Source of the DNA: Ischnura elegans
Lineage: Eukaryota; Arthropoda; Insecta; Odonata; Coenagrionidae
Assembly (NCBI RefSeq): GCF_921293095.1
Contig: NC_060257.1
Span: forward strand, 90,385,449-90,449,448
Reading direction: 5' to 3'
Length of the DNA stretch: 64,000 bases
Both the position numbers and the translations under genes were made by a program. Below the pieces are notes generated by a model. The model worked only from the letters and a program-made list of their open reading frames with translations, was not told where the DNA came from and searched no databases. Shown piece after piece: positions 575-47,261 of this stretch. Each line of letters starts with the position of its first letter. Positions within the stretch are counted from its first letter, which is position 1.

Positions 575-1925
575 CCCTATTGGAAAAAATCAGCCGATTC
601 CATTGAAAATTCCAATTGAAATCAATTGAAAATGCCAATTTTCAATGGAATTTCCTTGTTTTCAATGGAATATCCAAAAATTCAATCGGATTTTCAAATT
701 TACAACTGAAAATACGAATATTCCATTGAATATTAGGAAATTCAATGGAATTCGAAGAAAAGATACAATTGAATTGTCAAGTATTCCATTGGATTCTCAA
801 ATTTTCAATGGAATTCCCAAATATCCTATTGAAATCTCAAATACTCCATTGAAATCTCAAATACTCAATTGAAATAAAAAATACCGTTATACCGTTATTC
901 ATATGTTTACGTGCACATGGTAGTTGTGGTCAGTTGTGGTTAATTTTTTGCTTGTGGTGAAGACTATTTAGTATCGTTGTTATTTAACCTGTGCTTGATC
1001 CCCACAGCGTTGTTTTAGGTCATTCGTGTGTTTCTTCCGTGATATAGTGGAAGTCTTGATGTGATTGTTGTGCTGTAGTGCGTTCATTTAGTAATGTATC
1101 GTTTGCCTTCAGTTTTTTGACTGGTAATACTAACGTTTGTGTTTAAAATGTAAGCATATTTATATAACTTAATTATGCGTACGTGCGTTACGTCGCCGAC
1201 AAACAACTACTAGCATTGTCGGAAAGTGTGTATCACGCAGGTTAGTTTGTGTGAAGTGAAATTCCCGTGTTCTTGTATAAACATGAGTGACATGTTTCTG
1301 TTGTGAAAAATAAGTTATGTTGGCTTCATGTCAAACCAGAAGTATATTTATCAGTATTTTAAAGAAGCCTTTCTTAGATAAAGACGTGTGAGATATTTGT
1401 TGGTGAAGTTGTTATCGCTAATCGCGGAAAAACGTCTTCTTTTCGACAACTATTCAACGTTGTTTGAACAGGTAAAAGATGTGGCTCTCATGGTATAGTT
1501 GTTCTGATAATCATGGCAAAACTATACAGATTTTCGATAACTATTCATGATTGTGAGAAGTGATGTAAGATGTGGAAAAGCCCAATTAAAGTTTTCATGA
1601 CACTGCTTCTAAAAATATTTCAACTTTAATTTTTGTTCACGTGTTTTATTTATTCAGAATTCGGGATTCGTGAAATTTAGATTTTAAGTATATTCTACCT
1701 AATAATAAGTTTACCATATTGGATGTATTAATGTATTTGTAATTTTTTCAATTGAACTGTTCCATTGAAAAGTGACAAATTTCAATGGAATTTTTTTCAA
1801 TTGTAAAAATTTTCATTTGAACGGTTCCATTGAAAATTTTTCAATTGAACTGTTCCATTGAAATTTGTCACTTTTCAATGGAACATTTCAATTGAATTTT
1901 TTCCCATTGAATTTTTCCAATAGGG
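575..1925. mobile_element. non-autonomous DNA element with palindromic-word ends, inserted in copia pol
   Basis: Termini are inverted repeats beginning CCCTATTGGAAAAA (575) and ending TTTTTCCAATAGGG (1925). The dinucleotide CA is duplicated at 573-574 and 1926-1927. Both ends are packed with variants of TTCAATTGAA and TTCAATGGAA / TTCCATTGAA (about 600-880 and 1750-1920). The middle (about 900-1740) is ordinary AT-rich sequence with no credible gene. An ORF at 645-872 only translates the repeated words. The 1351-bp size, 2-bp duplication and CCC start match other elements in this window. No superfamily could be assigned. Confidence 0.85.
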
Positions 1926-4815
1926 CACTGTTGTTTATGATAAAAAGGGTTGTAAAATGTATGATGATGACTTTGTCTGTAATGGTACAGAACTAGCTAC
2001 TGCAAGTAGAACGAGTAATGGGTTAAACCGTTTGGATGTTAAATCAAAGCAGGCATTTGTGTGCAATATTAATGATTATGAATTGTGGCATCAAAGAATG
2101 GGTCATTTGGGTATGCAAAATATGATATTGTTGCGGGATAAATTAAGTGATTGCATTGATTTCAAGTATGAACCTGCTGATGATTGTAATGCTTGTGTTC
2201 TTGGAAAACAGCACAGAAATCCTTTTCCTAAGGAAGGAGGTACTAGGGCAGATGAGGTACTAGGTCTTGTTCACTCTGATCTGTGTGATTTTGGTTCTAA
2301 TGTAAAGTCATGGAGTGGGTCAAGGTACATTCTTACTTTGATAGATGATTTCTCTCGCAGAACGACTGTTTATTTCTTAAAGAGCAAGTCTGAAACCAAG
2401 CAGAGAGTGATTGATTTTGTAAATATGGCTGAAAATGTAACTGGTAAAAGGTTGAAAATTTTCAGGTCTGATAATGGAACTGAGTTCTTGAGTGATGAGT
2501 TACAGAATTTCTTTAAAAGCAGAGGAATCACACATCAGAGAACTGTAAGGTATACTCCACAGCAAAATGGTGTAGCAGAGAGACTGAATCGCACCATTCT
2601 GGAGAAAGTGCGATGCATGCTCTTTCACGCAGGAAGTCCTAAGGAGATGTGGGCAGAAGCAGCTAACACTGCTGTGTACTTATTAAACAGAAGCCCCCAC
2701 AGGAGTGTCCCTGACAATGTCCCTGAGGTCCTGTGGTCAGGTAAGAAAGTCAGCTATGATCAGCTCAGGGTGTTTGGTTCTGATGCATATGCTCTAATCC
2801 CTGAGGAAATAAGGGGGGATAAACTAAATCCTAGGAGCAAGAAAATGGTCTTTGTGGGTTACTCTTCAGCTTCCAAGGGGTATCGTTTGCTTAATCCTGA
2901 AAACCCGAGAGAAATTCTTGTTGCTCGTGATGTTAAATTCATTGAAAATAGTTTCACTGCAATTAAGGCTATTGGTAAAGGGAAGAAGGGTTCTTTCAGT
3001 ATGCCTGTGCCTGTAAACTTAGATGATGATTTGCCATTTACTTCAGTGTGTAATGTCAGTGATGATGTTCATTGTCAGAGTGAAACAAATGCCAATGTCA
3101 ATCACATTCATGGAGCAGAGAATGATATTGAAAATCTGTCTTTTGCGGATGCAAATGAGGTGCAAATAAATCCTGGAAATAATGTCGATGAAGGTGAAAG
3201 GAGGTATCCTATGAGGGAAAGGCAAAGGAAGGAATTTCCTGGTTTTGAGTTATATTTAGCATGTGATGAAAAGGTAGAACCTACATCAGTTACCGAGGCA
3301 TTAAATGGTACTGATAAAATTCATTGGAAAGAAGCTATGGAAAGAGAGATCAGTTCTTTTCAGGAAAACGATGTGTGGGATCTTGTAGACAGACCTAAGG
3401 GTGGAAATATAGTGCAATGCAAATGGGTTTTTAAATTGAAGCGGAATGGGGAGGGAGAAGTGGACAAGTATAAGGCTCGCCTGGTAGCTAAGGGTTTCTC
3501 TCAGCGTTATGGTATTGATTATCTTGACACTTTTGCTCCTGTGGTGAGACATGATACCTTACGATTGTGTTTTTCAATTGCTGTTGCTCATGGTTTGCAT
3601 GTACATCACTTGGATGTTTCCACAGCCTTTTTGAATGGTTCACTAAGTGAAGACATTTTCATGTACCAACCGGAAGGTTTTGTTTCAGATGCAAGTAAAG
3701 TGTATAAGTTAAAGAAGGCCATTTATGGCCTGAAACAGGCTTCGCGTTCCTGGTATGAGAGAATGGATGAAGTCGTATTAAGTGTTGGTTTTAAGAAATC
3801 TCAACATGAGCCTTGTGTTTATTTTTGGAGAGATGGTGCATCCATGGTTATAATATGTGTTTATGTTGATGACTTTTTTGTATTCTTTAATGATGAAGTT
3901 CAAGCTGAGAAACTGAAACAAAAGCTCCACTCTTGTTTTAAGGTAAAAGACTTAGGATCAGTCGTGGATTGCCTGGGAATGAGGGTAGAAATGGGTAATG
4001 GTAAAGTAAAGTTGAACCAAAAACAGGTAATTTTGAACTTGCTGAGTAAGGTGGGGATGGCAGAATGTAAATCTGTGTCAACCCCTATGGTTCCTGGCAC
4101 TCGACTGACCAAGGGTGAATCGATAACGTGTGATAGTGTACCTTACCAACAAGTGATTGGAAGTTTACTGTATTTATCAGTGTGTACCAGGCCTGATATA
4201 TCCTATGCTACCAATTACCTCAGCCAGTTCAACAACTGCTATGGAAATGAACACTGGCAGTGTGTGAAAAGAGTGTTAAGGTATTTAAAAGGAACAATTG
4301 ATGCAGGAATAGAATTCCGAAGGACTGAGAATAATCCGGATATTTGTGGTTTTGTTGATGCGTCATTTGCTAATGACGTCAACAGAAAATCAGTGACTGG
4401 GTATGTTTTTGTGTCTGCTGGTGGACCAATCTGCTGGGAGAGTAAAAAACAAAGTGTAACTGCCTTGTCTTCAACCGAGGCAGAGTATATTGCCATTGAC
4501 TCTGCAGGTAGGAAGGGCACTTACTTGAAGGGGTTACTCTCTGAGTTATGTGGTAGGAAGGGGCCAATTCTTTTATGGAATGATAACCAGAGTGCACTAA
4601 AATTAGCCTCTGACAATGGATTGCATGCTCGCACTCAGCATATAGAAGTGAAGTTTCATCACATCAGGGAACTTGTTAAGCATAAGAAGGTTGTCCTCAA
4701 TTACATGGAATCTGAAAAAATGATTGCCGATGTGTTTACTAAGGCACTTAATGTGACTGCACACCGCAAGTGCATTATTCCTCTGGGTATGGTTAATTGT
4801 AAAAATGCAATGTAA
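1926..4815 (+). CDS. copia polyprotein: protease end, integrase, reverse transcriptase, RNase H
   Basis: The frame is uninterrupted from the insertion edge to the stop at 4815; the first ATG in it is at 1957. Domains in order: GAG-pre-integrase HHCC zinc region (ELWHQRMGHLG ... CNACVLGKQH); integrase core with D (LVHSDLCDF), D (FRSDNGTEF) and E (QQNGVAERLNR); reverse transcriptase (CKWVFKLKRNGEGEVDKYKA, the LDVSTAFLNG segment, and the catalytic motif YVDD); and RNase H (CGFVDASFA, then SSTEAEYIA, then WNDNQSALKLA). No stop or frameshift is visible over about 950 codons. This argues that the element is young. The product reverse-transcribes and integrates element RNA; here it is separated from gag-protease by the insertion at 575-1925. 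Confidence 0.95.
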
Positions 4816-6857: not shown

Positions 6858-8060
6858 GGGTGCTTTCCAATCGCGTATCTGCGCTGATCTGTTTTAAACT
6901 GTTTAGCTCAGAGCGTGTTCCAATCGCAGCTGTGACGTCATCTGCGCTAAACAGATGGGAACACATCCTGCACCGTCGTTCGTCTGCGCTAGCAGACAAA
7001 ACTTGTGATGGCGGGAAAATATATTGGTGACGGAAAATGAATGAATGAATTCCACCATCTCAAAGATAAGTATGATGATCATTTGAGAATAATAAACAAT
7101 AATTTGATCTATATATGTCTTACATAAGTTTAATTAAGCTCGTAATGTCGGAAATATAATATTATCTTCGTCAAACGTAATGATTGATATAACTCATGAG
7201 CAAAGAACGATAGCAAGAGGAGGCTAGTAGATTTTCTAGAGTAATTGTCCCTATCAAAAAAATTAGAAATGGAGAATGTTAGCTATTTAACTAAAATGTT
7301 ATATTGCTTAGATTCTAAGCAGATTTATTTCATTAGCTTACATGGATAGCGGGCGTATTATATACCAAATTTCCTTTAACGTTCATGTGGCGTTAATTTC
7401 ATTCCATTAATTGAAATTCAGTACCGCAAAATAACTATAGAATCGGCAGATTTATAATGCGGTGTTAAAATTTTTTACGGCTTTACCTGCGTGATATGGA
7501 TTTAAGTTGTATATGTATCTCAATCCAGAAATGCGAAATGAAGTATAAGTGGTATAACTGCCGGCACTGTAGCAGTTCGGGAGAGGTAATGAGGAACTTG
7601 CATGGGTCTTGGGGGGTGAGGGAGTTTTTCCCGCGCTTTAAAATTCGTTATATTTATCATTAAATATCTCGCGAAGGAAAACTCAGATTTACATGCGGTT
7701 TTCTTTGTTGTATTCAGAAAATAATTTTCTGTCCGCCTATGAAATAAAAAAAATTCATGCAAGTTCCTCATTATTAAGTAGCGATAGTTCCATTATTTTC
7801 TTTCAATTAATACTTACTAGTGCTTATATAAATACAAAATGATATAGACGAATATTTATCATCCTTCTTCAATAATAATGTGGCGAAGGTCAGTTCAAAA
7901 GCTACAGGTCATTTGAACATTCAACTTTTGCCGCCGATAGGTCCACCATTTGTAAACACACCAGCGCAGATGCGTTCCAATCGTCTGTTTCAGTGTGCGC
8001 TAGTGTGTTTCAATCTGCTGCGATGTGAGCTAGTCTGCGCAAGGTGATTGGAAAGCACCC
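6858..8060. mobile_element. 1.2-kb MITE-like element with GGGTGCTTTCCAATC ends (copy 1, complete)
   Basis: Inverted termini read GGGTGCTTTCCAATC at 6858 and GATTGGAAAGCACCC ending at 8060, flanked by a possible 3-bp duplication ATA (6855-6857, 8061-8063). Both ends are rich in variants of TCTGCGCTAGCAGA and GTTCCAATCG. The interior is AT-rich with no transposase. The left breakpoint of the tandem duplication falls inside this element at about 6988, so copy 2 has only its right part. Confidence 0.75.
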
Positions 8061-8220
8061 ATAGGGTCAATTGACGGTGCATCGGCTATCTCTCGTAATA
8101 GCGGGGGTGTCGCTATAGCCCATACTCGCTTTAACGAGGTTCCACTGTCTATATTTTGATAGATAGGTATGCCTCAACTCTTGACTTCTCTGCTGCTGTT
8201 AACATCCAAGCCTTGCTCTC

Positions 8221-8458
8221 CAGTGGCGTAGCCATTGGGGGGGTTCTGGACCCCCCCCCCCCCCCCGAAATACAAAGGCACAATTATTTTTCTCCATAAA
8301 AGATAACAAAATATTGCAAAATTTTTTTAACAAATGAATTTTTTTCGATTATGAAGGCGTTAAAATTAGTTTAAAACCCTCTACTTAGTACCCTGTTTTT
8401 CCAATATTTCTCCCCTGATTTTGGACCCCCCCATACAAAATTCCTGGCTACGCCACTG
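8221..8458. mobile_element. hAT-like MITE, CAGTGGCGTAGCCA ends (copy 1)
   Basis: It starts CAGTGGCGTAGCCA and ends TGGCTACGCCACTG, 238 bp in all, with long G and C runs just inside each end and a GGACCCCCC motif. The terminus type is common among short hAT-like elements of animals. The 8-bp flanks (8213-8220, 8459-8466) match at only about half the positions. It interrupts non-LTR retrotransposon remnants. Confidence 0.78.
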
Positions 8459-9805
8459 CCGCTCCTGCAGAGAACAATGCTTTAAATGTAGGAGGGAAGA
8501 CAAAGGGAAGAGATGGAAATAATACCTGGAAGAATTATGCAATGGAAGCAAACTCAGAACAAAAATTGTCAAACAGGAAAGTGAAATGGAAAATGACGTG
8601 AGAGTGAGCACATTAAGATCAGAATTTGATGCTGCAATATGAGCCCTGCTAAGGAATAATGCTTCAGGAACAGCTGATATTCCAGCAGAGCTCATCAAAA
8701 ATGCAGGAGAGAGGACTTTGAATCGACTGAACAAAACCATCAGTGAAATGAACTCAACTGGAGATTTGCCAAAAGACTTTGAGATTAATATCATCATTAC
8801 TATGCCTAAAACAAAGAGAGCAGAGAAGTATGAAGATTTTAGTACCATGAGTTTGACGATGCATACATTGAAGATACTGACAAGAACCATCTATAGGGGA
8901 ATAGAACATAGAGCAGAAGAATTCCTGGATGAGGACCAATTCTGATGTAGGAAAAGCAAGTATAAAAGAAGCAATTCTGGCTCTTAGGCTGCTTATAGAG
9001 AAGAGAATGGAGAAAAACAAACCGACTTTCACAGCATTTGTCGATTTAGAGAAGGCGCTTGACAATGTGGAATGGAATTCAATGCTTAGAATCCGGAAAG
9101 AAATCGGAGTGCTCTACAATGATCGTAGAATTGTTCATATTTTGTATAAAATCCAAGTAGCAGTGATCAAATGTGGACCCAATGATGCAGAAGCAAGAAT
9201 AGGAAAAGAAGTGAGACAAGGGATCACTTTCCCCCATAACTTTTAATTTTTGCATCGAAAAAGCCAATCACTGAAATCAAGGAGAAAGCTTTGGGTGTCA
9301 ATGTCAACGGAGAAAAAATTAGTACGCTGGGATTTGCTGGCGAAATAGCACTTGTAGCCAAGACAGAGAAGGATTTAAAGAAGACTATGGCAAATATGGA
9401 AAGGACAATGGCAAGATATCAGCTGAAAACCAACATTTGAAGAAATTGGAGAAGAAAAAAACCAACTTTTATAGCATTTGTTGACTTGGAGAGGGCCTTT
9501 GATAACTTGGAATGGAATTCAATCTTAAGAATTCTGAAAGAATTGGATTGTTCACAATGATCGTAGAAATGAGTACAGTTTTTATAAACGTAGCTGCGAT
9601 AAAATCAGCACCCAACTATGAAGAAGCAAGAAAAGGAATGAGACAAGGGTGTGCACTGTTCCCAGTAATTTTTCATGCAATTTGCTAACAACATTACCAT
9701 CATAGCTGAGAGTGAAAATGATAGGAAAAAGACTATGACAAATATGGAAAGGACAATGGCCAGATATCAGCAGAAAATTGACAAAAGGAAGACAAAGATA
9801 CTATG

Positions 9806-10002
9806 AGGGGCGGATCCAGGATTTTTTTCTGGGAGGGGCACAAGCAAGGCCGTATCCAGGATTTTGTTCTGGGTGGGGCACAAGGATACCTCGTAATACA
9901 AAACGAACGCAATGATATTAGGACCGTATTAAAAATCTTGCATATTTTTGAGGGTCTGGGGGGGGGGCACGTGCCCCCGTGCCCCCCCTGGATCCGCCTA
10001 TG
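9806..10002. mobile_element. hAT-like MITE with GGCGGATCCAGG ends (copy 1)
   Basis: The left end AGGGGCGGATCCAGG and right end CCTGGATCCGCCTATGG are inverted repeats, flanked by an exact direct repeat GATACTATG (9797-9805 and 10003-10011). That fits the 8-bp target duplication of hAT elements. It contains GGGGCACGTGCCCC-type G/C-rich sequence and a partial second left end (about 9845-9885). It is inserted in the LINE relic. Confidence 0.85.
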
Positions 10003-10375
10003 GATACTATGTAATATAAAGCAAAAGAGAGGAGCCTAGGACAAAGATGAAACTAGGGAAACAAAAGCTTAAAAGTGTGCAAGAGTTTGTTACCTAGACA
10101 CCAAATAACCATTTCTGGTTAAGAAAGAAATATGTAGTCAGTAGAATAGCTAAGGCGCAAAAAGCTTTCCGCAAAAAGAAGAATCTCTTCATAACTGACT
10201 ACAAAAGTATAGAATTATGAAAAAAATTCAGCAGATGATACATATGGAGCATGTTTCTATATGATAGCGAGGATAGGAGATAGGAGGTCTACATCAGCAG
10301 AGAAGTCTTGAGTGGAAAAATACACAGAGGAAAATTCATTTGCCTTGACTAGGATTTCCACTGAGGAAAATGATG

Positions 10376-10545
10376 CCTTGGTAGCTCAACTGGGTTAAGC
10401 ACTCGACTGGAAATTGGGGGATCCGGTTTCGTTTCCTAGTCGAAGGGAATGAATTTTTTCTCTGTGTATTTTTGGCACAATTTGTGCATTGCAGGTGACT
10501 CCATAAAGATATCACCATGGCTACTCCTGGCAGGAGCGCAGATAA
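10376..10545 (+). repeat. tRNA-derived SINE in LINE relic (copy 1)
   Basis: A polymerase III box A-like block (TAGCTCAACTGGGTTAAGCA, about 10381-10400) and a box B-like block (GGTTTCGTTTCC, 10425-10436) are about 30 bp apart. A non-tRNA tail follows. Box B is degenerate and no cloverleaf closes, so this is not a tRNA gene. About 33 bp of the tail also occurs in inverted orientation at 10319-10353, giving a hairpin and suggesting a second SINE fragment head to head. Confidence 0.65.
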
Positions 10546-10582
10546 GAATTAAGGCTAGGGGAGGTTTCAGGTGCAACTAATA

Positions 10583-10841
10583 CTGGGGTGCCTGGGGGTG
10601 TGGTATACCCACCGGGGTAAGCGGTTGGTGCAGGAGCCCTCCACCAGAAAAAAATTTAAGATAAATCGCTCTAAATGTTGAGTTTTACGGCCTTATGAAG
10701 GATATTTTGTTAGTCCTCACACTATTCTATAAGCAATATTAATCCAATTAAGTAAAATAGATTTAACTTAAAAATTTCTCTGAGCTCTGGGGGGGAGGGG
10801 GAGGTTTAACCCCCAAAACCCCCCCCCTTGCTGCACCACTG
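10583..10841. mobile_element. hAT-like MITE remnant, CAGTGGTGCAGC end (copy 1)
   Basis: The right end reads TTGCTGCACCACTG at 10841, the inverse of a CAGTGGTGCAGC terminus, just after G- and C-runs. The left end CTGGGGTGCCTGGGGG at 10583 is a poor match and no target duplication is visible. LINE-related sequence resumes after 10841. Confidence 0.55.
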
Positions 10842-11250
10842 AGTCCCGGTATACTTCAAAAAGAGTGGAGGCATTCAAAATGTGGTGCTACCAAAGAATG
10901 ACGAAGATTAAAAGGATTGACTGAGTACACAATGAGAAAGGGCTGAGAAGAGTGGGAGGAGCGACAAGTCTTCTAAAAATCTTGGTCAGAGGACGGGACA
11001 GGCCACATTATGATGAGACATGATGGCCTGATGGAAAAAATCGTAATTCCTTGTCTTATGCTATCAGTTCTTTATCTACAATAGATGATGCCCTGCTATA
11101 ATGCAATCATTACATTATTATTCATCATTTCAGCAGCAGTGTAAGAGAGAAAGCCTGCCCCTGGAAAAGATGTAGAAGTGACTGTGAGAAATTGGATTAG
11201 GCATGCTGAGGAGCGCTTGCAGGGGAAGAAGAAAAATAAGTAATATGTAA

Positions 11251-12360
11251 TTTCCTGTGTTAGCTTCTTGTACTAAGTAGTCTAATCAATAATTATAATG
11301 AAATTGATGCCTTATTTATTTAAATTCTTGTCCGGACCTGGTATTTATTGGTAATAAACAAAATTCAGTCCTAATCCTTAATGCGTGTCCTGAAGGTGTC
11401 CGGAGCAGACACCTTCAGGAGGTCCGTAGGCAGTATTTTTTACTGACATGCAGACATGCAGTGGGCATCCTCTGGCATAAATATCCTCTGGCATGGGGAT
11501 GGCCTACGGATGTCCGTAGGCCACTTGGCGGACAGTCACCAGACATCCCAAAGATGTCCGTGTGTGGGGTAGAAGGGAAGAAGGGCAAGGGATGGCCCCG
11601 AATGAATTACATAGGGTAGGTTCAGTGGTGCGGACTCCATGGGGCCTGAGGGGGCCCGAGCCTCCTCAAAAATTGGTTATGGGAGCGACGAAAAAGTGTG
11701 TCAGGCTTGTCGATTTTCCCCGGAACGTCCAGATATCAAGATTTGTGTTATCAGGGTTCTAATGGTGATCATATGACTCTTCTAAAATGCTTAAAAAACT
11801 AAAAACTCACTATGTATAAAATTTCCTTGGGCAGAACCCCGGTTTGGGCCCCCCCAATATTTTCTGTAAGCCGGCACCCCTGGGCAGGTTATAAAAGAAC
11901 GTAAGAGAAAAGAAATATGACACTGTGAAAAGGTTAGCAGATAGGAGAGCAGAATTGAGCAGCTGCACATATAATCAATCATTAAGATATTGTTGACATA
12001 TGGTGATGAGACATTTTTACTCTTCCATTTATACAATAGGCAGTACTAATTTGTACATATTTTAACCGTGTTTTATTGAGAGAATATACTTGGATAGTTT
12101 TCCTTTGGTGATTACAGCTGTTGGTTTCTTGTGGGCTGTGGGCTTAAGTAATGGGAGTTAAATTAATAATATTGTCAAACAATTAACACCACAACCACTC
12201 ATCATTACGAATTACATTTGCAAGCTTTACACAAACAAATCAAAAAAGAAAGAATGAGAAACAATAATATTTCAGCCTACAGTAAAGAATGAATGCCTAC
12301 TGTTCTACAAATATTATTCAATTTTTTAAGCAAAACCAGAGCATGGCAGAGTAATAATGA
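11251..12360. other. non-genic stretch with strong hairpins (copy 1)
   Basis: There is no supported gene. Two hairpins lie in a region rich in the word TGTCCG(T/G)AG. In the first, CCTGAAGGTGTC (11389-11400) pairs perfectly with GACACCTTCAGG (11408-11419) around a 7-base loop. In the second, CCTACGGA (11513-11520) pairs with TCCGTAGG (11523-11530). The rest, apart from the hAT-like MITE at 11623-11882, is AT-rich and featureless. Counterpart in copy 2: 32990-34099. Confidence 0.6.
11623..11882. mobile_element. hAT-like MITE, CAGTGGTGCGG ends (copy 1)
   Basis: It starts CAGTGGTGCGGACTCC and ends CCGGCACCCCTG (inverse CAGGGGTGCCGG), with GGGGCC / GGGCCC runs just inside. The flanks GGTAGGTT (11615-11622) and GGCAGGTT (11883-11890) match at 7 of 8 positions, the 8-bp duplication expected for hAT elements. 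Length 260 bp. Confidence 0.85.
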
Positions 12361-12998
12361 CCCAGATAGCACGCAAGCTGACGTCCAGCTTAACTTTCTC
12401 TTGTCACGTCAAGCTTGACATTTTCTAGCTTCATTTAGGTTTGGATTGTCAAGCATGATCCAATACAAAGTTGAATCAAGCTTGCCAATCTTGCAAGAGC
12501 TACAAGGATAATGAGATGTTATGATTCTTTTGCAAATAAATTGTACTGTTTAAAGGAAACTTGGTTCACTCATTTTATCCTTTTCAAACTTGATAATTGT
12601 TATTCAAACTAAATGGACATGTATGATATGATTCGAGCTTAATTGTCTAGTCATGTTAATGTTCATCTTCATTCATATGACCTTTACAAGAACTTGACTG
12701 AATACTAGAACCTAATTCCATTTCCAGTAATAGAACATTAGTGCACTAATTTCTGACAGTAAGATTGATGTGAATAATATACAAGCTGGCATTGGCAGGC
12801 TTGATTCAACAACCTTTAATTTTTAGGCTTGATTCCAGCTTGAGTTGGTAGGCTTGAACCGATCTTAGTATCCTAATTGTGGCAAGCTTGCATGGTGGGA
12901 ACTTGTTTGTATGATTCAAGCTTCCTTTATTCAAGCCTGACTGACCTGATAGGTCAAGTGGGAATCAAGCTTGATTCCAGCTTGCCTTATTATCTGGG
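12361..12998. mobile_element. MITE with CCCAGATA ends and AAGCTT words (copy 1)
   Basis: The element starts CCCAGATAGCACGCAAGCTG and ends with the inverse of CCCAGATAATAAGGCAAGC. GA is duplicated at 12359-12360 and 12999-13000. The 638-bp body carries many variants of TCAAGCTTGA and GATTCAAGC, densest near both ends. No ORF is present. Confidence 0.83.
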
Positions 12999-13110
12999 GA
13001 GATGGTTTTCTCTTACCTTTTATAAAATCATCCTTAACTAAGGTGGCTGAACCCCGATGACGAATAGTTTTCTCTTGAGACCACCTATAGGCACCAAACA
13101 GTCAGAACTG

Positions 13111-29799: not shown

Positions 29800-29959
29800 A
29801 TAGGGTCAATTGACGGTGCATCGGCTATCTCTCGTAATAGCGGGGGTGTCGCTATAGCCCATACTCGCTTTAACGAGGTTCCACTGTCTATATTTTGATA
29901 GATAGGTATGCCTCAACTCTTGACTTCTCTGCTGCTGTTAACATCCAAGCCTTGCTCTC

Positions 29960-32284: not shown

Positions 32285-32321
32285 GAATTAAGGCTAGGGG
32301 AGGTTTCAGGTGCAACTAATA

Positions 32322-34099: not shown

Positions 34100-34737
34100 C
34101 CCAGATAGCACGCAAGCTGACGTCCAGCTTAACTTTCTCTTGTCACGTCAAGCTTGACATTTTCTAGCTTCATTTAGGTTTGGATTGTCAAGCATGATCC
34201 AATACAAAGTTGAATCAAGCTTGCCAATCTTGCAAGAGCTACAAGGATAATGAGATGTTATGATTCTTTTGCAAATAAATTGTACTGTTTAAAGGAAACT
34301 TGGTTCACTCATTTTATCCTTTTCAAACTTGATAATTGTTATTCAAACTAAATGGACATGTATGATATGATTCGAGCTTAATTGTCTAGTCATGTTAATG
34401 TTCATCTTCATTCATATGACCTTTACAAGAACTTGACTGAATACTAGAACCTAATTCCATTTCCAGTAATAGAACATTAGTGCACTAATTTCTGACAGTA
34501 AGATTGATGTGAATAATATACAAGCTGGCATTGGCAGGCTTGATTCAACAACCTTTAATTTTTAGGCTTGATTCCAGCTTGAGTTGGTAGGCTTGAACCG
34601 ATCTTAGTATCCTAATTGTGGCAAGCTTGCATGGTGGGAACTTGTTTGTATGATTCAAGCTTCCTTTATTCAAGCCTGACTGACCTGATAGGTCAAGTGG
34701 GAATCAAGCTTGATTCCAGCTTGCCTTATTATCTGGG
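34100..34737. mobile_element. MITE with CCCAGATA ends and AAGCTT words (copy 2)
   Basis: Duplicated counterpart of 12361-12998. Confidence 0.83.
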
Positions 34738-34849
34738 GAGATGGTTTTCTCTTACCTTTTATAAAATCATCCTTAACTAAGGTGGCTGAACCCCGATGAC
34801 GAATAGTTTTCTCTTGAGACCACCTATAGGCACCAAACAGTCAGAACTG

Positions 34850-35429
34850 CCCTGGTGAAAATGAACTGTTCACGAACCGTTCAAGAAGCATTAAACGAAG
34901 TGTTCAGAACCTGTTCACTAAGCGTTCATTAACTGTTCGGGAACCGTTCAGGGACTGTATTTTGGGCCATTGAACCGTGACGAACCGTTCCAATAAGCTG
35001 TTCAGCAGGCGCTTCCCAGCTGTTCATGAGGTGTTCAGCTGTTCATGGAGTGTTCTGTAATCATGCAGGAAGCGTTGCACGAAGTGTTCAGAACCTGTTC
35101 CCTAAGTGTTCATGAACTATTATTGAACTGTTCACGGACTGTATTTTGCCCCATTGAACCGTGACGAACCGTTCCAATAAGCTGTTCATGAGGTGTTCAG
35201 CTGTTCATGAGGTGTTCAGCTGTTCATGGAGTGTTCTATAACCGTGCAGGAAGCGTTGCACGAAGTGTTCAGAACCTTTTCCCTAAGTGTTCATGAACTA
35301 TTATTGAACCGTTCACCGACTGTATTTTGGCCCATTGAACCGTGACGTACCGTTCCAATAAGCTGTTCAACAGGCGTTTCCCAGCTGTTCATGAGGTGTT
35401 TTCAGATGTTCGTGAAGCATTCTTTCAAC
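34850..35429. repeat. 182-bp tandem repeat, left arm of family B (copy 2)
   Basis: Duplicated counterpart of 13111-13690, with the same three units. Confidence 0.85.
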
Positions 35430-35592
35430 TGTACAGGAAGCGTTTACCATAATACCAATGATGATTAACATCTCGAAGTGTAGGTCTGACAATAATAATT
35501 GTGTAAATAACACTTGTGAGAATAATATGCAAAATTGTTTACCAACATTTCGATACATTCCTCATGCCTTATTCTGGGTTATGAATGATAAT

Positions 35593-35796
35593 TGTTGTAA
35601 ATAGTTACTGGGGGGACGATGGTTTTAGATTCAGGAGGAGTGGTAAATGAACACGACCACACGTGTTGAATAACATGGCGAAACTGCGATTTATTAAAAG
35701 AACCAACTTCCGGTGAAGAACAAAAAAAACAAATGAATACAGTAATACGATAGTTGGGAGATTACCAGCCATATTCAAACAAAAACAATCACAACG
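35593..35796 (-). repeat. reverse-strand copia LTR fragment, uninterrupted (copy 2)
   Basis: This is the same LTR as in copy 1 but continuous, 204 bp. It provides the empty target site (TA at 35602-35603) for the element found at 13865-20131. Confidence 0.9.
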
Positions 35797-35820
35797 TTAC
35801 ATTAAATTGATACATGAAGG

Positions 35821-36104
35821 CAAGGGTGAATCCAGGATATTTTTCTGGGAGGGGCACATGGGTGTGACAGGCAAACAGTCTTCTCATATTTGAGATTTAA
35901 AGGGTAACAATATGCATTGAAAGATTACTGTACAATATATTTTCTTTATCTTAACAAGATACTTATTGATATGAAATTACATAAATGATTGAGACTCCCA
36001 ATTAAACAAAAAGAATACTAAAAATCTTGTGTGTTTTTCAAGCGTCTAGGGGGGGGGGCAATCTACAATCCGTGCCCCCCCCCCCCCCCCTAAATCAGCC
36101 TATG
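35821..36104. mobile_element. degenerate hAT-like MITE (copy 2)
   Basis: Duplicated counterpart of 20351-20633. Confidence 0.65.
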
Positions 36105-37796
36105 CATAAAGTAATGAAAGGTTTTGTTACAATAAAAGAATATATGTAAATAGAAATCAATTTTACATACATAATACGCCGAAATTCTTGTCTCTTCTTT
36201 TACATTTGTGTACATAATTGAATTCTTTCTGTATTTTTGTGACCTACAATCCAAGACATTAATCATCATTGGTATAATTGTAAACACTTCCTGTAAAGTT
36301 AAAAGAATGCGTCATGAACATCTGAAAACACCTCATGAACAGCAGGAAAATACCCCATGAATAGCTTATTTGAACAGTTTGCAACGCTTCAATGGGCCAA
36401 AATTCACTACAAGAATGGTTCCCCAACAGTTCATGAACACTTCTGCTACAGTTTCTGAACATTTTGTGTCACACTTTTGGAATGGTTCTTGAACAATTTA
36501 TTTTCACCAGGTATGCACCCTTTATCATTCATAACAATTGTATATAATTCTCAGACCTATACACCAAGACATTAATCATCATTAAATAATTGAGGTCAAG
36601 AAAAAGAAATCCATTTAATAATACCAGTGCTTGATCAGGAAGCTGTGGTACCCCAACAGCACACATTTGGTTATACATAATGTATTTATATTGTATTTTC
36701 ATGGGTCACATACATATTTATTTTTGTTATGTACAACATGTGTAATACATATGTAGGGGAAGGTGTTGTACCTTGGAACACTTGTACCTTGGAACATTGA
36801 AGATATTTAGTACTTACCATGGCATCTAGTGGGAATGGTTTGAACTATGTGAAGCTACCTCCAGTAGATGCTCAATTGTTTTGAAATGGCTGCCTGATGT
36901 TAACAAGTTTTGATGTAAACTCCAGTTGAATTTTATGTGGCGAAAAAGTAATTATTCAGAGATAGTATTTTCGATTGACTGAATCTTCATCACGATTGTT
37001 AGTGAATTTTCATCTAGTTGTTCTTAAACTGTAAGTATAACTGTGTCTATTACTACTTATTTTAATGTTAATTGTTGTAATTTATATGAAGAAGTCGGTG
37101 TTTGGAAATGAATGTTGTAGTTGGTGTACCTCTGAACACTATTGTTAGTGTACCTTGGAACATGTTCCAAGGTACACTAACATGAATCATTTTTGTAAAT
37201 TACTTACTAAAGACAATTATGATGAAGCTACATACCAGTATCTATTTTGTTTTAGGTTAGGCCAGAATATGCCTAGAAGTAAAGAAGGTAAGAAACGATC
37301 AGCAGTTGTAAAAGAAAATATTGAATGTGCAGTTATGGCAGTCATAAATGGTGAAATGTCATTGCGGCAAGCATGTGCAGATTTTACAGTAAAATTGGGA
37401 ACACTACACAGACATATTGAAATTCATAAACAGTCAGGTTCAGATGTGTATAAATATGAAGCAACAAATGCAGTAAAACAAGTTTTTAATATTACAATGG
37501 AGGAGGAACTGCTTGACTACATAAAGCAGGCAGCTCTTCTGCATTATGGGTTAACGAAATGGGAGATACGGGAGCTTGCATACCAGTATGCTAAAGCAAA
37601 CAAAGTTAAATATCCTCAACAGTGGGATGAAAACCAAACTGCCGGAGGTGAATGGATGAGAAATTTTATGAAGAAACATGAAGCTTCGGTTGCACTTCGG
37701 AAGCCTGAAGCAACGTCTCTTGCTCGATCAACAAGCTTTAATAAATTCAATGTACAAGCATTCTTTAAAAATGTTAAAACTGTTCTGGAAAAGCAT

Positions 37797-40700
37797 CCCC
37801 AACAACACACATTTGGATATACATATGTATATATATTGTATTTTCATGGGTCACATACATATATATTTTTGTTATGTATTACATCTGTAGTACATATGTA
37901 TTATTGAATGTATTTCCTTTGTATTCATACATATGTAAAAGTGGCACTTGTTACACGATAAATACATTTGTATTTTTTGTGTATTTTGAAATTTGGATAC
38001 TTATGTAAATGTGGTCAAAAATACACAAAAATACAAATGTATTTATCGTGTAACACGTACCACTTTTACATATGTATGAATACAGAGGAAATACATATGT
38101 AAATGTGGTCAAAAATACACAAAATATACATTATGTATATTTCCTGTAATACTTGGGAGGTAGATTTTCGTGGCGTCTTGCGAAACGTTCATAAACATTT
38201 TTTCCAGAAATAATATGTTCACAGCAAACGCCAGATTTCCCTATTTTAATGATCATTCATCCATTCGAATTTATACCCAGAAAGCTTAAAAATAAATCAT
38301 ATACTGGTCGATGTGAGCAAGGGTAGTAAATATGGCGGCTATTTATGTTAATTTGTAAATGCACGCGAAATACAGACGTATTACATATGTAAAATTCAGT
38401 TTCTATCCGCGAAATATACACATGGAAAAATGGTTCACAATACATGAAAAATACAAAACATAGTACTTGCACAGATCAAAAGTAAAAGCGAAGTTTGATT
38501 TTTTAAACAATATTTTAATGTAACTGTTTAGACAAAAAATTAAATTCTCAATTCCGCGGCTCACTGTCGCTAGGGAAGTGAGTGGGAGTGATACAGTTAT
38601 AATCTCATTGACAGTAAACCTCGGCCTCGGCATTTCGTTCGAGACTACGAGAACATGCTGTAGGAGGAACTCCGGCATCTACGCTAATAAACAAAAGGAA
38701 ATCCGTTATTAACTAGCTACTGATGTATAGTTAATTTTATATTTGTTTGTATTATTATACTTATTGGAAGAATTGACATAGTGTTTTAATCCTCGATAAC
38801 CGGTGCGTGTGGATGGTGTGCTCTATGTTTTGCTGGAAATGTGCTTCAATCCCACACGTTATTGCGATTCGTGCAAGCCAGCTCCAGCAGTTTCCTGTCA
38901 CTGCAGTGATCCATCCAATCCATGGATTATTAAGGTAAGGTATGATTTATCTTTTATTGTATTGTACGCCTACATAGACTACATTAATTATGTTATTTGA
39001 GTATATTTGGATACAACTATTGGCGCAATGTGGTCAACACATTGCGCCAATAGAGGTAATTATTTTGTTTATGTTTGGCTATTGTTTTCCTTTTTTGTTG
39101 AGTTATGTATCGAGGAGACTAGTGTCCATTGAAGTTATATGGTAAAACATAGTAATGTCAATCTTGTACGTATAAATTAATAGATTATGCGTCGTATAGT
39201 AATTCCGTGCTTCGCGGCTGAAGTTACATTTTTACTTCTCTTAATTAAGAGCAGAAAAAATTGTTTGAAGGAATGTTTTCGTTCACGTGTAAGTTGTTTT
39301 ATCGCTGTTTATTACCACAACCTACTGTATTGTAGTTCTTGCATTCCTAGTTATCCTATGCTTTAGTCATAACATCTTTGACCGTAGACTTATCAGCGTA
39401 GCCTTGTCACTGATAGATTCCTCGAGGTTCCGAGCGGTTTTGCCCTCTACTTCTAATTATTTAACGAACAAGAAGTATTGGTCGTGTAATATCGGTTCCC
39501 TTAAAGCAAAATGTAATATTTCTTTCATCTTGAAATGCAGTCAATCAAGGTGCATTTCGTCATTATTATTAACACAAGATAAATACGTAATTTTCATGCG
39601 AAAGTTTGTCATTATATGTAAGAAAAAGGTGCGTACGGGCCAAATTAATTAATTATAATTTTCTTTTCATGCTCTTTCGCGCATACCCAGCAGGCGACGA
39701 TGTAAATAGCTTGGCCTGGACAAGAGGAGAATGGATTACGGAAAAGACGACGAAGCAAAGCCAGAAGACCAGGTGGAATTGTTAATACCGAGGTAAGCTT
39801 TGAGGGAAATTTTTTTTTACCATAATGGAGAGGTTTCTTAAAGTTAAGCCTGAAATTATCGGTTATGTATGAAATTTATTTGTTTGAAAATTTGATATCA
39901 CAAGTTTATATTTTTTCTGTGTGAGTCATCCGCTACTAAATCATGGTAGTAATATATTAGTATCTTGTAATAAATAAGCATACCAATGGATTCACGTTTT
40001 CCTAGTTAATTTATATTTAAAAGTAGTCATATGATCTTTTCTCATATTTCTCATTCTTCTTAAGAGAAAGGCTATTAATTTTGTAAAATGAAAGCATTTC
40101 CCCAAAATATATGATTTATCAAAGTACAAGGTCAAATCTGTGCTAGCTGGGACCTCGACATAATTGGTAAATGAAAAAATTTAAAACTTATGTCTGGAAC
40201 CTAGCAGAGAAGCCAAACTTTCATTTGCATTCAGAATACAGAATTAGTACTAAAATTACAGACTTCACAGATTACTGACTGCCTATATGAATTGAAAAAA
40301 AATAAAATTGAAAGGCCTTGAGCTCCTATTCAGATCTTACAAAAAGATATATTTTTGCATGACTTTTAAACTTGACGTCTTCTTTTCTCCTTTCAGAAAG
40401 TGGCTAATTGTGCAGAGTTGGTTTCCTGAATTCAGGTTTCTTCTTGTGCAATGGGTTACAACGCTTGTTCCGTGCTAACATTTTTTTCTATTTTCCAACT
40501 CAAACCATTGTTTGTACTTGATTTATCTTTGTGCCATTTTTTTTAACTAAGTTTCACCTACTGTTTGCTGGCCCTTAATGCTTGTTAGCAATATTCATGG
40601 CCACACTTGTTATTTGTGTGTATTATTTTATTTTTCTCTTTGAATAAATGTTTTATTATCTGTACGTTCTGGTTTCCTTATATTTATTCATCCGTTTGAT

Positions 40701-41100
40701 CCATATTGATATTAAGTGGATGTGGGTCAGAAAATCAATATGTATAATTCGTGTACGAGGGCCTGCAGATACACATGTATATTACATGTGAGGATTTTCA
40801 GATTTCCAATTTGTAATACGCATGTATACATACATCCTGAGGGACTTTTGAGCCACTTTTACGTGAAATATACAGACGTAATACGATTGTATTCCATTGT
40901 ATACATATGTATAATTCATGTATGGGTATTCAGATTTCCAATTTGTAATACGCACGAATACATACATCCATAGGGACTTTTGAACCACTTCTACGTGAAA
41001 TATACCGATGTAATACGATCGTATTCCATCTTATACATATGTATTTGGTCACGTTTTTTGTGTGTATTATTGATGTAATACAAATGCCGTGTTATCTGGG
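37797..41100 (+). mobile_element. family-A DNA element inside the pogo transposase (copy 2)
   Basis: Duplicated counterpart of 22326-25629, with the same AT flanks, hairpins and small gene (39731-39792 and 40397-40478). Confidence 0.93.
39731..40478 (+). CDS. predicted spliced 47-residue protein carried by family A (copy 2)
   Basis: Exons 39731-39792 and 40397-40478 are the duplicated counterpart of the gene at 24260-25007, with no differences seen. Confidence 0.5.
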
Positions 41101-44100
41101 ATGGTCCATTTCCTGCACATCAAATTTACAATGTGGATGAGACAGGGCTATCAACGGTCCACGTACCACCGAAAATTGTGGCTCCAAAAGGCATAAAACA
41201 GTTGGGAAGTATGACTTCTGGAGAAAGGGGACAGAATGTGACCATGATTGCTGCAATTAACGCTGTTGGGAATCACATTCCTCCTATGTTTGTGTTTCCG
41301 AGAGTAAATTTCAAGGATTTCATGTTAACTGGAGCTCCAGTAGGTAGCATAGGAGGTGCTAACCCATCCGGGTGGTCCAATGAGAGTCTATTCTTGAAAT
41401 TTTTAGATCATTTCATACAACATGCAAAGCCTTCAAAAGAGGAACCAATTCTCATGTTCCTTGACAACCATGATAGCCATGTGAATATCCCAGTTATTGA
41501 GAAGGCCCGAGCTTCAGGAATAATTATGATCACATTTCCTCCACACACTTCACATAAACTTCAGCCTCTAGATCGGACAGTTTTTGGTTCTTTCAAGATG
41601 CATTATAATAGGGCAATGAATAACTGGATGTCCTCCAACCCAGGGAAATCTGTGTCAGTGTATGATGTTGCTCAATTGGTGGGCAGAGCATTTCCTCTTG
41701 CTTTTACTACCAGCAACATTCTGAGTGGTTTTAGTGCTACTGGCATCTCGCCACTGAATGAGGACATTTTTCAGGAAGATGAGTTTCTTTCCTCGTATGT
41801 CTCAGACCGTCCCGATCCAGCACTGAATCCAGGAGAAAGGCATGAGCCACTGCAATTGGTGAGTAAACCTTCAACAAGTGAAGAGCCTACAATCTCACCA
41901 GTGATGATCAGACCGTTTCCAAAGGCGCTGCCTAGGAAGAGGACTTCTAAAGGAAGAGCAAAAGGAAAATCTAGAATTCTAACAGACACACCCAACAAGG
42001 AGGAAATTGCAGCACAGAAAACAAGTGGTATCAGTAAGAAGAAAAAGCCCGTTAAACGTAAGTTGATAATAGACGATAGTGGGGACGAGTGCGAACAGGT
42101 GATTTGTCAAGATTCTTCATATAAAGAAGTGAGTGTGCAAGAAATACTTGAACAAGATGCTGAAGACAAAATCGAAGAAAATGCCATTGCAGTGGGTATG
42201 GGAGAAAAAAGCATGAAATATGTTCTTCCTCTAAAAAGTGTTGTTCGTGCAGTGGGGCAGTTTGTAGCAGTTACATATGATAACGAATTGTATCCTGGGA
42301 AAATAATCAATGTTAATGATGATGGGGCAACCATTAGCTCAATGACAAAATCAAAAAAGTCATGGAAATGGCCAGAGAAAGAAGACATTTTAATATATCC
42401 ATGGGAAGATATTTTAGGTGGTATTAACTCTCCAAGGCAAATTTCAAAAAGAGGATTTTTTCATGTACCAGAATTAAACTCAATGAATTAGGACATAACG
42501 TTTGCTAAATGTTCACTTAGTATTTGTATGAGTATAGATGTTTTCATATTAAAAGATTAGATGGACTGCTAATACGTTTGCCAGATTTATACAAGCCATG
42601 TTCCAAGGTACAACATGAGATGTTCCAAGGTACAAGAAGTCACTGTACCTTGGAACACATGTCATTGATATCAAAATTAAATGATTGCATTAAGGATCTG
42701 TTTATTATTTATCTGAATGGCATTTAGAAAACATATACAATAGTGGTACCAAAGAATGGAAACAGGCAGAACCTCCGACCTCTCCTTTAAAGTATCAAAA
42801 TGATTAAAAAACCAAAATCTGTTCCAAGGTACAACACCTTCCCCTATTATTGGATATATTTCCTTTGTATTCATACATATGTAAAAGTGGTACGTGTTAC
42901 ACGATAAATACATTTGTATTTTTGAAATTTGAATACTTATGTAAATGTGGTCAAAAATACAAATGTAAATATCGTGTAACACTTGCTACTTTTACATATG
43001 TATGAATACAGAGGAAATACATATGTAAATGTGGTCAAAAATACACAAAATATACATTATGTATATTTCCTGTAATTTTTGAGAGGTGGATTTTCGTGGC
43101 GTCTAGTGAAATGTTCAGAAACATTTCTGCAGAAATAATATGTTCACTGCAAACGCCAGATTTCCTCATTTCAATGATCATTCATCCATTCGAATTTATA
43201 CCCAGGAAGCTTAAAAATAAATCATATACTGATCGATGTGAGCAAGGGTAGTATGGCGACCATATTTATGTTAATTTGTAAATGCACGCGAAATACAGAC
43301 GTATTACATATGTAAACTTCAGTTTCCATCCGCGAAATATACACATGGAAAATGGTTCACAATACATGAAAAATACAAAAAATAGTTCTTGCACAGCGCA
43401 AAAGTAAAAGCGAAGTTTAATTTTTTAAACAATATTTTAAATTAACTGTTTAAACAAAAAAATTAAATTCTCAATTCTGTCGCAACAAGCTAGGGAAGTG
43501 AGTGGGAGTGATAATCTCGTTAACAGTTAGCTCGGCATTTCGTTCGAGACTACGAGAACGTCAAGAACGTGCTGTAGGAGGAACTCCGGCTACTGATGTA
43601 TAGTTCATTTTATATTTGTTTGTATTATTATACGTATTGGAAGAATTGACATAGTGTTTTAATCCTCGATAACCGGTGCGTGTGGATAGTGCGCTCAAAC
43701 CGAAGCTATGTTTTGCTGGAAATGTGCTTCAATCCCGCACGTTATTGCGATTCGTGCAAGCCAGCTCCAACAGTTTCCTGTCACTGGATAATTAAGGTAA
43801 GGTATGATTTATCTTTTATTATATTGTACGCATACATAGACTACATTAATTATGTTATTTGAGTATATTTGGATACAACTACCACATTGACCACATTGCG
43901 CCAATAGAGGTAATTATTTTGTTTATGTTTGGCTATTGTTTTCCTTTTTTGTTGAGTTATGTATCGAGGAGACTGGTGTCCATTGAAGTTATATGGTAAA
44001 ACATAGTAATGTCAATCTTGTACGTATAAATTAATAGATTATGCGTCGTATAGTAATTCCGTGCTTCGCGGCTGAAGTTACATTTTTTCTTCTCTTAATT

Positions 44101-44581
44101 AAGAGCAGAAAAAATTGTTTAAAGGAATGTTTTCGTTCACGTGTAAGATTGTTTTATCGCTGTTTATTACCACAACCTACTGTATTGTAGTTCTTGCATT
44201 CCTAGTTATCCTATGCTTTAGTCATAACATCTTTGACCTTAGGCTTATCAGCGTAGCCTTGTCACTAATAGATTCCTCGAGGTTCCGAGCGGTTTTGCCC
44301 TCTACTTCTAATTATTTAACGAGCAAGAAGTATTGGTCGTGCAATATCGGTTCCCTTAAAGCAAAATGTAATATTTCTTTCATCTTGAAATGCAGTCAAG
44401 GTGCATTTCGTCATTATTATTAACACAAGATAAATACGTAATTTTCATGCGAAAGTTTGTCATTATATGTAAGAAAGAGGTGCGTATGGGCCAAATTAAT
44501 TAATTATAATTTTATTTTCATGCTCTTTCGCGCATACCCAGGAGGCGACGATGTAAATAGCTTGGCCTGGACAAGAGGAGA

Positions 44582-45302
44582 ATGGATTACGGAAAAGACG
44601 ACGAAGCAAAGCCAGAAGACCAGGTGGAATTGTTAATACCGAGGTAAGGTTTGAGGGAAAAAATTATTTTTATCCATGACGGAGAGGTTTCTTAAAGTTA
44701 AGCCTAAAATTATCGGTTATGTATGAAATTTATTTGTTTGAAAATTTGATATCACAAGTTTATATTTTTTCTGTGTGAATCATCCGATACTAAATCATGG
44801 TACTAATAAATTAGTATAATGTACTAAATAAGCATACCAATGGATACACTTTTTCCTAGTTAATTTATATTTAAAAGTAGTCATATGATCTTTTCTCATA
44901 TTTCTCTTTCTTCTTAAGAGAAAGGCTATTAATTTTGTAAAATGAAAGCATATCCCCAAAATATCTGATTTCTCAAAGGACAAGGTCAAATCAGTGCTAG
45001 CTGGGACCTCGGCATAATTGGTAAATGAAAAAATTTAAAACTTATGTCTGGAATCTAGCAGAGAAGCCAAACTTTCATTTGCATTCAGAATACAGAATTA
45101 GTACTAAAATTACTGACTTCACAGAATTCAAATTGAAAGGCCTTGAGCTCCTATTCAGATCTTACAAAAAGATATATTTTGCATGACTTTTAAACTTGAC
45201 TTCTTCTTTTCTCCTTTCAGAAAGTGGTTAATTGTGCAGAGTTGGTTTCCTGAATTCAGGTTTCTTCTTGTGCAAAGGGTTACAACGCTTGTTCCATGCT
45301 AA
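44582..45302 (+). CDS. predicted spliced 47-residue protein carried by family A'
   Basis: The exons 44582-44643 and 45221-45302 have the same splice sites and length as in family A. The three base differences in exon 2 are two silent changes and one Trp-to-Arg change. The intron differs from that of A by several small indels. Conservation of the frame between independently inserted copies is the main support. Confidence 0.5.
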
Positions 45303-45926
45303 CATTTTTTTCTATTTTCAAACTCAAACCATTGTTTGTACTTGATTTATCTTTGTGCCATTTTTTAAAACTAAGTTTCACCTACTGTTTGCTGGCCCTT
45401 AATGCTTGTTAGCAATATTCATGGCCACACTTGTTATTTGTGTGTATTATTTTATTTTTCTCTTTGAATAAATGTTTTATTATCTGTATGTTCTGGTTTC
45501 CTTATATTTACTCATCCGTTTGATCCATATTGATATTCAGTGGATGTGGGTCAGAAAATCAATATGTATAATTCGTGTACGAGGGCCTGCAGATACATAT
45601 GTATATTACATGTAAGGATATTCAGGTTTCCAATTTGTAATACGCATGTATACATACATCCTGAGGGACTTTTGAGCCACTTTTACGTGAAATATACAGA
45701 CGTAATACGATTGTATTCCTTTGTATACATATGTATAATTCATGTATGGGTATTCAGATTTCCAATTTGTAATACGCACGAATACATACATCTATAGGGA
45801 CTTTTGAACCACTTCTACGTGAAATATACCGATGGAATACGATCGTATTCCATCTTATACATATGTATTTGGGCACGTATTTTTTGTGTATTATTGATGT
45901 AATACAAATGCCGTGTTATCTGGGTA

Positions 45927-46428
45927 GATATGTTTACAAACTGTAGCTAGGCTGAACTGAAGTGTTGCATACCAATGAAACTAAACTGTTCAGGAAGAGC
46001 TTTCAAGTCTTTGGGAATTAAGATTTTCAATCTTCTGGGGTTATTTGCAGTACTTTTAGTTATTGCACAAGCTCAGGATTGTAGTTGAAAGTCACACATT
46101 CAACACTTTATTTACTTTGCTCACATTATTGTTGTAAATGCATATAGCAACCTCAAAACATTTGTACTTATATATTTACACTTTTATTAAAACTGTCAAT
46201 GTAAATATATATTGCCCTCATTATACCAATTTGGCAATTTTTGCACATTTCACCAATAACTCAGCATAAACATTCACACTCACTTAAAGCACTTCTGAAT
46301 TTTTGAACATATTAGCCCTAATTTTAAATGTCTTCCCTTATAATGCACTCATTCATGTTTCTTTAAATTCATGCTTATCATTTATGCAAAATAGTGAATC
46401 ATGAATAGCATTAATTAAATTTTACATT
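45927..46428. other. right half of family B, interior, no gene
   Basis: AT-rich sequence following the right end of family A'. It contains isolated family-B words (AACTGTTCAGGAAG at about 45983) but no coding region. Confidence 0.5.
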
Positions 46429-47261
46429 CAGTAACTGTGGAAGAAATGGGTTGGGCTCTTGAATTTAATAATCTGTTCAGGAAGCGTTTTTGGCCAACTG
46501 TGCTGAAGCCGTGCACAAGACGTTCCATTCATGGGCCGTTTGTGGGTAGAGCATGCGAAGAATTCCCAAACACTTCATGAACGGCCTAGGAAATTTGTCA
46601 AGTTCTGAGTCAATATCTGATCCTAAATTTTGCTTAGAAAATTATGAACACAATGATGGTTGTTTTCCTTAATTCATGATGATATGTTAATTATCATCTA
46701 TTATGTAAAATAGTGAATCATGGCTAAATTATTTCATTCAGTAACTGTGGAGGAGATATGCAGAACTAAAATATCTGTTCATGTCCAACTTTGCAGGAGC
46801 CGTGCAAAAGGTGTTCTAGTCATGGGCCGTTCGTGGGTACCAGGTTAGAACCTGCGAACAATTCCCAAACACCTCATGAACGGCCCAGGAAATTTTTCAA
46901 GTTTTAAGTCAATATCTGATCATAATTTTGCATAGAAAATTATGAACACAATGATGGTTGTTTTCCTTATGATCAATTATGTAAAATAGTGAATCATGGA
47001 TAAATTATTTCATTTAGTAATTGTGGAGGAGATTTGCAGAACTAAAATATATGTTCATGAAGCGTACAGGAAGCGTTCATGTCCAACTGTGCAGGAGCTG
47101 TGCACAAGGCGTTCCGTTCATGGGCCGTTCGTGGTTACCAGGTTAGAGCATGTGTACAATTCCCAAACACTTCATGAACGGCCCAGAAAATTTGTGAACC
47201 GTTTGCACAGTACGTGCACAGCTTACGAACAGTTAAGCGAACAGTTCATTTTCACCTAGGG
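46429..47261. repeat. about 290-bp tandem repeat, three units, right arm of family B
   Basis: CAGTAACTGTGGA(A/G)GA begins at 46429 and 46739, and a variant begins at 47016. Each unit continues with a TGTTCATG-type word, a CATGGGCCGTTCGTGG block, CAATTCCCAAACAC and CATGAACGGCC. The first two share a TTATGAACACAATGATGGTT tail. The array ends at the right terminus (TTCACCTAGGG, 47261). Confidence 0.85.

Follow-up and report, generated by a model that had tools for sequence, protein, structure and literature searches.

Which transposition system, if it is a single one, lies behind the insertions that begin with CCC in the 64-kb window, the whole stretch of DNA analysed here? The original prediction described element types that shared CCC ends, 2-bp target duplications and subterminal palindromic words of their own, and read them as one system with exchanged words which did not match any superfamily. 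Six CCC...GGG insertions in five families (A, B, C, D and E with its sister F) were found, and judged from their sequences they are probably non-autonomous members of several families in the animal TRC lineage of the CACTA (EnSpm) superfamily. One system with swapped words fits the data, in which the classes of termini cross the family borders (B, D and E/F in one class, A and C in another). The missing superfamily match had to be revised, since CCC ends combined with 2-bp duplications characterize the animal TRC group of CACTA elements (PMC1636069; this and the other papers cited are quoted from excerpts of their texts). This filing is based on ends and duplications, not on a protein.

The window has a G+C content of 37% and is, judging by its copia and pogo-like frames, repeat-rich and eukaryotic. 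It contains two head-to-tail, near-identical copies of one region (6988-28712 and 28727-44184), with 100% identity over 6877 bp to the left of element D (6988-13864 and 28727-35603) and 99.95% identity over 8583 bp to its right (20132-28712 and 35602-44184). The copies differ by D, which adds 6267 bp to copy 1, and copy 2 extends further, reaching the right end of C that copy 1 lacks. They may be alleles that were laid end to end by the assembly or a recent true tandem duplication. The predicted TG-flanked element at 13111-47261 is not one element: position 13111 is the left terminus of C in copy 1 and position 47261 its right terminus in copy 2, the true pair being 34850-47261. Within copy 2, C (TG flanks) encloses F (36651-45924, TA), F encloses the pogo-like element P (36756-42844, TA) and P encloses E (37797-41100, AT); in copy 1, D (13865-20131, TA) is nested inside C as well.

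All 12 ends of the six insertions start with CCC, and no strand is assigned to any of these elements. A (575-1925, 1351 bp) has the ends CCCTATTGGAAAAA with a terminal match of 14/14, CA flanks at 573-574 and 1926-1927 and the word TTCAATTGAA; its host site is a copia gag-pol frame in which copia domains are present. B (12361-12998, 638 bp) has the ends CCCAGATAGCACGCAAGC and CCCAGATAATAAGGCAAGC, GA flanks and the word TCAAGCTTGA, and is repeated without change at 34100-34737. The ends of C (12,412 bp, or about 3.1 kb minus the nested F) are CCCTGGTGAAAATGAACTGTTC and CCCTAGGTGAAAATGAACTGTTC, its word is GTTCATGAAC and its left end occurs in region copy 1 at 13111. D (6267 bp) has the ends CCCAGACAGCACCGAG and CCCATACAGCACAAGC and carries the word ACACGTGT near them; its presence in just one of two near-identical region copies suggests that it moved recently. 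E (22326-25629, 3304 bp, with its second copy at 37797-41100) has the ends CCCCAACAACACAC and CCCAGATAACACGGC, AT flanks and the word TACATATGTA, and sits inside the transposase gene of P. F measures 9274 bp with the nested P and E and 3183 bp without them, and its left end is found in region copy 1 at 21180. F had been grouped with D, which proved wrong: it carries TACATATGTA instead of ACACGTGT and is a sister of E, with 91% identity over 3.2 kb and aligned left ends.

The flanking dinucleotides CA, GA, TG, TA, AT and TA are as predicted for the six insertions, in the case of C after correction of its left end. An exact 2-bp duplication is supported for three of the six, once by an observed empty site and twice by reading frames. 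The empty site is that of D, seen in the second region copy at 35602-35603 (AAATAGTT), and it is the sole one observed. For A and E the length of the duplication was deduced from the interrupted frames, an approach that holds modulo 3 only. Removal of one CA from the flanks of A yields a copia frame that is open over 79 residues; with 0, 1, 3 or 4 bp removed, no frame is open. Removal of one AT from the flanks of E leaves the transposase frame (...VLEKHGPFPAHQIYNVDETGL...) continuous on both sides. If 1 or 4 bp are removed, a different left frame, unrelated to this one, also lacks stops, so that stop counts alone would not decide the length for E; only 2 bp (modulo 3) preserves the transposase on both sides. 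With CA and AT duplications backed by reading frames, Tc1/mariner elements, which duplicate TA only, do not apply, as had been predicted, and the CCC elements depart in the same way from the TA, TAA or TAAA of pogo elements. ISL2EU, presumably incompatible with the flanks CA, GA and TG, was dropped as a candidate. The same misfit led to the rejection of ATon, which uses AT sites (PMC3422177).

Comparison of the termini links the families with each other. A 12-bp terminus, CCCAGAYARCAC, is common to B, D and E/F, and the termini of A and C fall into a second class of looser fit. Among the 1112 CCC sites of the window that were scored, a full 12/12 fit to CCCAGAYARCAC was found at the ends B5, D5, E3 and F3, the other 12/12 sites being second copies of B5 and E3 only; six sites reached 11/12, one of which is D3. 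As this consensus was drawn from these very ends, a pairwise comparison of the bases following CCC is the fairer test, with 1094 CCC sites outside the element ends as background. Nine of the twelve ends were taken into this test and 10 of 32 cross-family pairs agreed in at least 6/10 bases. The ends B5 and E3 share 9/10 bases, which none of the 1094 background sites equalled with either query; B5 and D5 share 8/10 (equalled by 3 and 0 sites) and A3 and C3 share 7/10 (3 and 1 sites). Weaker pairs such as D5 and E5 (6/10) were equalled by 24 and 34 background sites. Lone CCCAGCTAGCAC and CCCTGATAACAC sequences resembling the shared terminus lie at 24680, 45005 and 11756, all on the minus strand, and for none of them was a partner with an equal dinucleotide present among the best ten upstream CCC sites. 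Two further CCC sites 12 kb apart, 47546 (+) and 59688 (-), have AA on both sides and 10/14 terminal matches, which may be due to chance. The exact 26-base end of the E family gave no match in genome contigs, a 16-base terminus pattern gave one match in each of 50 stretches of viral contigs, which were taken as chance, and a literature text search for the letters of the terminus matched 50 papers, with no transposon paper by title among the 25 listed.

The subterminal words were counted in the terminal 350 bp of each element (319 bp in B) and compared with dinucleotide-preserving shuffles, 20 for 10-mers and 40 for 8-mers. The 10-mer test covered all 1024 palindromic 10-mers with up to two mismatches. 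The highest-ranking palindrome of A is TTCAATTGAA with 26 copies, the best of any palindrome in the shuffles being 18; for B it is TCAAGCTTGA (15 copies, shuffle best 6) and for C GTTCATGAAC (14 copies, shuffle best 5). Part of the count in A stems from tandem expansion, because its left array (766-883) is a 20-bp tandem repeat, and the non-palindromic sister word CCATTGAA is commoner there than CAATTGAA (13 vs 11). The word of C is frequent in the interior as well, with 16 copies in 2436 bp. In D the top palindromic 8-mer is ACACGTGT with seven copies at up to one mismatch, a modest count, as eight copies of some palindrome were reached in at least one of 40 shuffles. The word itself has a mean of 0.2 in the shuffles and is nearly confined to the ends, with one copy in the 5567-bp interior; as a 10-mer it merely ties with ATATATATAT. 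In E and F, ATATATATAT and further AT-rich words outrank TACATATGTA, which at up to one mismatch is clearly concentrated at the ends (13 of 14 copies in E, 11 of 12 in F). A palindromic word of its own for each family, as originally proposed, thus holds for A to D, where the word or its core is best or joint-best, and for E and F in the concentration at the ends only; the predicted word TGTTCATGAACA does not occur exactly anywhere in the window. Both ends carry family-specific subterminal repeats, a mark of CACTA elements; they are weakest in D, and in C the word also lies internally.

Possession of a repeated subterminal word is not enough to mark out the CCC group, because P, which is not CCC-ended, has one too. 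This near-dyad word, GTACCTTGGAAC/GTTCCAAGGTAC, is concentrated at the ends of P, where its 8-mers occur six times compared with a shuffle maximum of three; strict palindromes are not above the shuffles (7 vs 7). P (36756-42844, plus strand, 6089 bp with the nested E, copy at 21285-27373) has 25-bp ends GGGGAAGGTGTTGTACCTTGGAACA and TA flanks. Its transposase gene (37155-42488, plus strand), the one clear transposase recognized here, is split by E at 37796/41103 and encodes the domains HTH_psq, HTH_Tnp_Tc5 and DDE_1, all above the curated Pfam cut-offs, and a long C-terminal part. A DDE_1 transposase, a short terminal inverted repeat and a TA duplication are as in pogo elements. Like the published members of the pogo superfamily, P combines DDE_1 with a Tc5-type DNA-binding domain; it differs in the psq domain (the term "psq" was absent from the searchable text of PMC7386202), in the long C-terminal part and in its interruption by E. 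The transposase was also considered as F's own gene, which would make F an autonomous pogo-like CCC element, and this was rejected: at the corresponding site of the E/F alignment, E has TACATATGTA followed by TTATTG, where F has TACATATGTA, GGGGAAGGTG...CACCTTCCCC and TATTATTG. Since E lacks P and has a single TA there, P is a separate pogo-like element. Among PDB sequences the transposase listed six matches, unrelated and at best with an E value of 0.071; with parts of it, one scan of viral contigs gave nothing and another gave one locus, where two frames overlap, judged to be chance.

Several observations weigh against the assignment of the CCC elements to the TRC lineage. No Transposase_21 was detected in Pfam among 89 frames of at least 45 amino acids from A, B, C, D and E (F being represented through its sister E only), and 18 Pfam families matched weakly with one member each, including DDE_Tnp_IS240 in one frame (E value 0.066). 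As no Transposase_21 appears in these frames, the CCC copies look non-autonomous, and no autonomous copy was seen within the 64-kb window. For B, C and F the claimed duplication is reduced to equal flanking dinucleotides, and no empty site of theirs was found in the window. When CCC/GGG pairs were scanned blindly for equal dinucleotides and a terminal match of 10/14 or better, A came first, but B and D appeared among about 109 rows, nearly all of them meaningless, and C, E and F were missed. The many meaningless rows would suit an explanation of the shared plan by chance in an AT-rich, repeat-rich region full of CCC and GGG triplets. This explanation has a negligible probability, since the duplications of D (by its empty site) and of A and E (by reading frames) contradict it, as do words concentrated at the ends in comparison with shuffles and the cross-family termini measured against 1094 CCC sites.

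Also on the opposing side is the position of A and C relative to published TRC ends. In favour of the assignment, end D5 (CCCAGACAGCACCGA) resembles the Tribolium TRC end CCCTAGTAGCACCGA, the last eight of fifteen bases being in agreement (PMC1636069). Scored over 13 bases, it matches Tribolium in 8/13, including an in-register run of eight (AGCACCGA); counting element ends, 14 of the 1112 CCC sites reach this score. On the same background, 18 sites equal its 8/13 with Hydra Spongebob and 18 its 5/7 with Aedes. The ends of A and C reach only 0-2/7 with Aedes and 5-7/13 with Tribolium, scores reached by 44 to 255 of 1112 sites; with Hydra, A reaches 1-2/13 and C reaches 1 and 6 of 13. Spongebob itself has no readable transposase and was classified from its ends (PMC4298943). 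It is conceivable, if unlikely, that the five families stem from at least two unrelated superfamilies which arrived independently at CCC ends and duplications of 2 bp, with A and C distinct from B, D, E and F. The two classes of termini and the poor matches of A and C speak for such an origin; yet all have CCC, the palindromic layout and a duplication of 2 bp, for which A has support just as D and E do, and the Tribolium TRC end too begins with CCCTA (PMC1636069).

A further opposing point lies inside D, which probably holds an old, decayed scrap of another pogo-like transposase at 17678-18221 (minus strand, 544 bp), different from the transposase of P but recognizable by similarity to it. Of 219 frames of D, the top three matched by this transposase fall within these 544 bp, the best with 7.0 bits, and none of 100 shuffles exceeded 5.9 bits. 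The first two matches (E values 0.019 and 0.22) correspond to P residues 333-363 and 160-175, in gene order, and the third (E value 1.2) was assigned to the C-terminal part by eye; in Pfam the scrap is invisible. It may be a remnant of D itself or an old nested insertion. That the CCC families owe their movement to a DDE_1 transposase of pogo type whose 2-bp target is relaxed, the scrap being its remnant, appears improbable to us. The score of the scrap above all shuffles and a pogo-like transposase nested in F, split by E only, would agree with it, but the latter is part of P, an element of its own with GGGG termini between TA flanks that is missing from E, printed pogo duplications are TA, TAA or TAAA (PMC7386202), and the scrap makes up just 544 bp of a 6.3-kb element into which it may have been inserted long ago. 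We give slightly less credit still to a variant in which a pogo-type DDE_1 transposase lost its TA target for any dinucleotide and its dimeric psq/Tc5-type part diversified a palindromic site for each family, with the scrap as a trace.

For the preferred TRC/CACTA reading a division of labour can be proposed. A transposase of the Transposase_21 type, provided by another place in the genome, would recognize the conserved CCC termini, excise the element and reinsert it via a 2-bp staggered cut at targets without a fixed sequence. A family-specific TNPA-like protein would bind the subterminal array and join the ends, possibly as a dimer because the words are palindromic; such a dimeric reader is putative and a reasonable guess.

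Besides these elements, the window contains a diverged direct repeat (57155-57888 and 60570-61295, 66% identity over 777 columns) and an Rfam tRNA match at 61901-61973 (plus strand, 48.7 bits), which is either a gene or a tRNA-derived repeat.

Known systems allow a first classification of the CCC elements. The animal TRC elements of the CACTA superfamily described by DeMarco et al. (2006; PMC1636069) have CCC as first bases, a 2-bp direct repeat and a Transposase_21; in SmTRC1 of Schistosoma mansoni the repeat was present in 7 of 14 copies, three of which were checked against paralogous empty sites. SmTRC1 and its relatives in Tribolium and Aedes share CCC ends, 2-bp repeats and truncated copies with the elements of the window, in whose frames the Transposase_21 encoded by the published ones was not found; the terms "subterminal" and "palindrom" were absent from the searchable text of that paper. 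CCC and a 2-bp duplication were also used in 2015 to place Hydra Spongebob_HMa / EnSpm-4N1_HM in TRC/CACTA (PMC4298943), an element of 5.8 kb with CCCAGCCAACATTGAC ends, 2-bp duplications and no readable transposase like those of the window, and unlike them without palindromic subterminal words in the available part of its description. In the wider group, duplications comprise 2 to 5 bp and most ends are CA...TG, for which reason CCC ends are atypical of it (2025; PMC12730594). Thus an apparently unclassifiable group is given a home, the combination of CCC ends and 2-bp duplications of free sequence being indicative of CACTA-type elements of animals, and the locus most likely represents known biology, with new families of a group already described. 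The palindromic form of the words is its least documented part: a literature search, limited to open-licence papers, gave no description of self-complementary subterminal words in animal elements and no treatment of the co-divergence of transposase and subterminal-binding partner in animals. Plant CACTA elements (En/Spm, Tgmt*, Tgm1) differ in their CACTA ends, in the 3-bp duplication (Tgmt*) and in the repeat motifs, and resemble the elements of the window in their conserved ends and family-specific subterminal repeats with the ability to form palindromes (PMC2613891). In soybean, where the ends are conserved, these repeats diverge even within the species, as do the TNPA-like proteins that presumably bind them (PMC2613891). 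With five families in 64 kb that combine conserved ends with differing palindromic words, the window offers a natural series for this question of co-divergence, which has already been raised in plants (PMC2613891).

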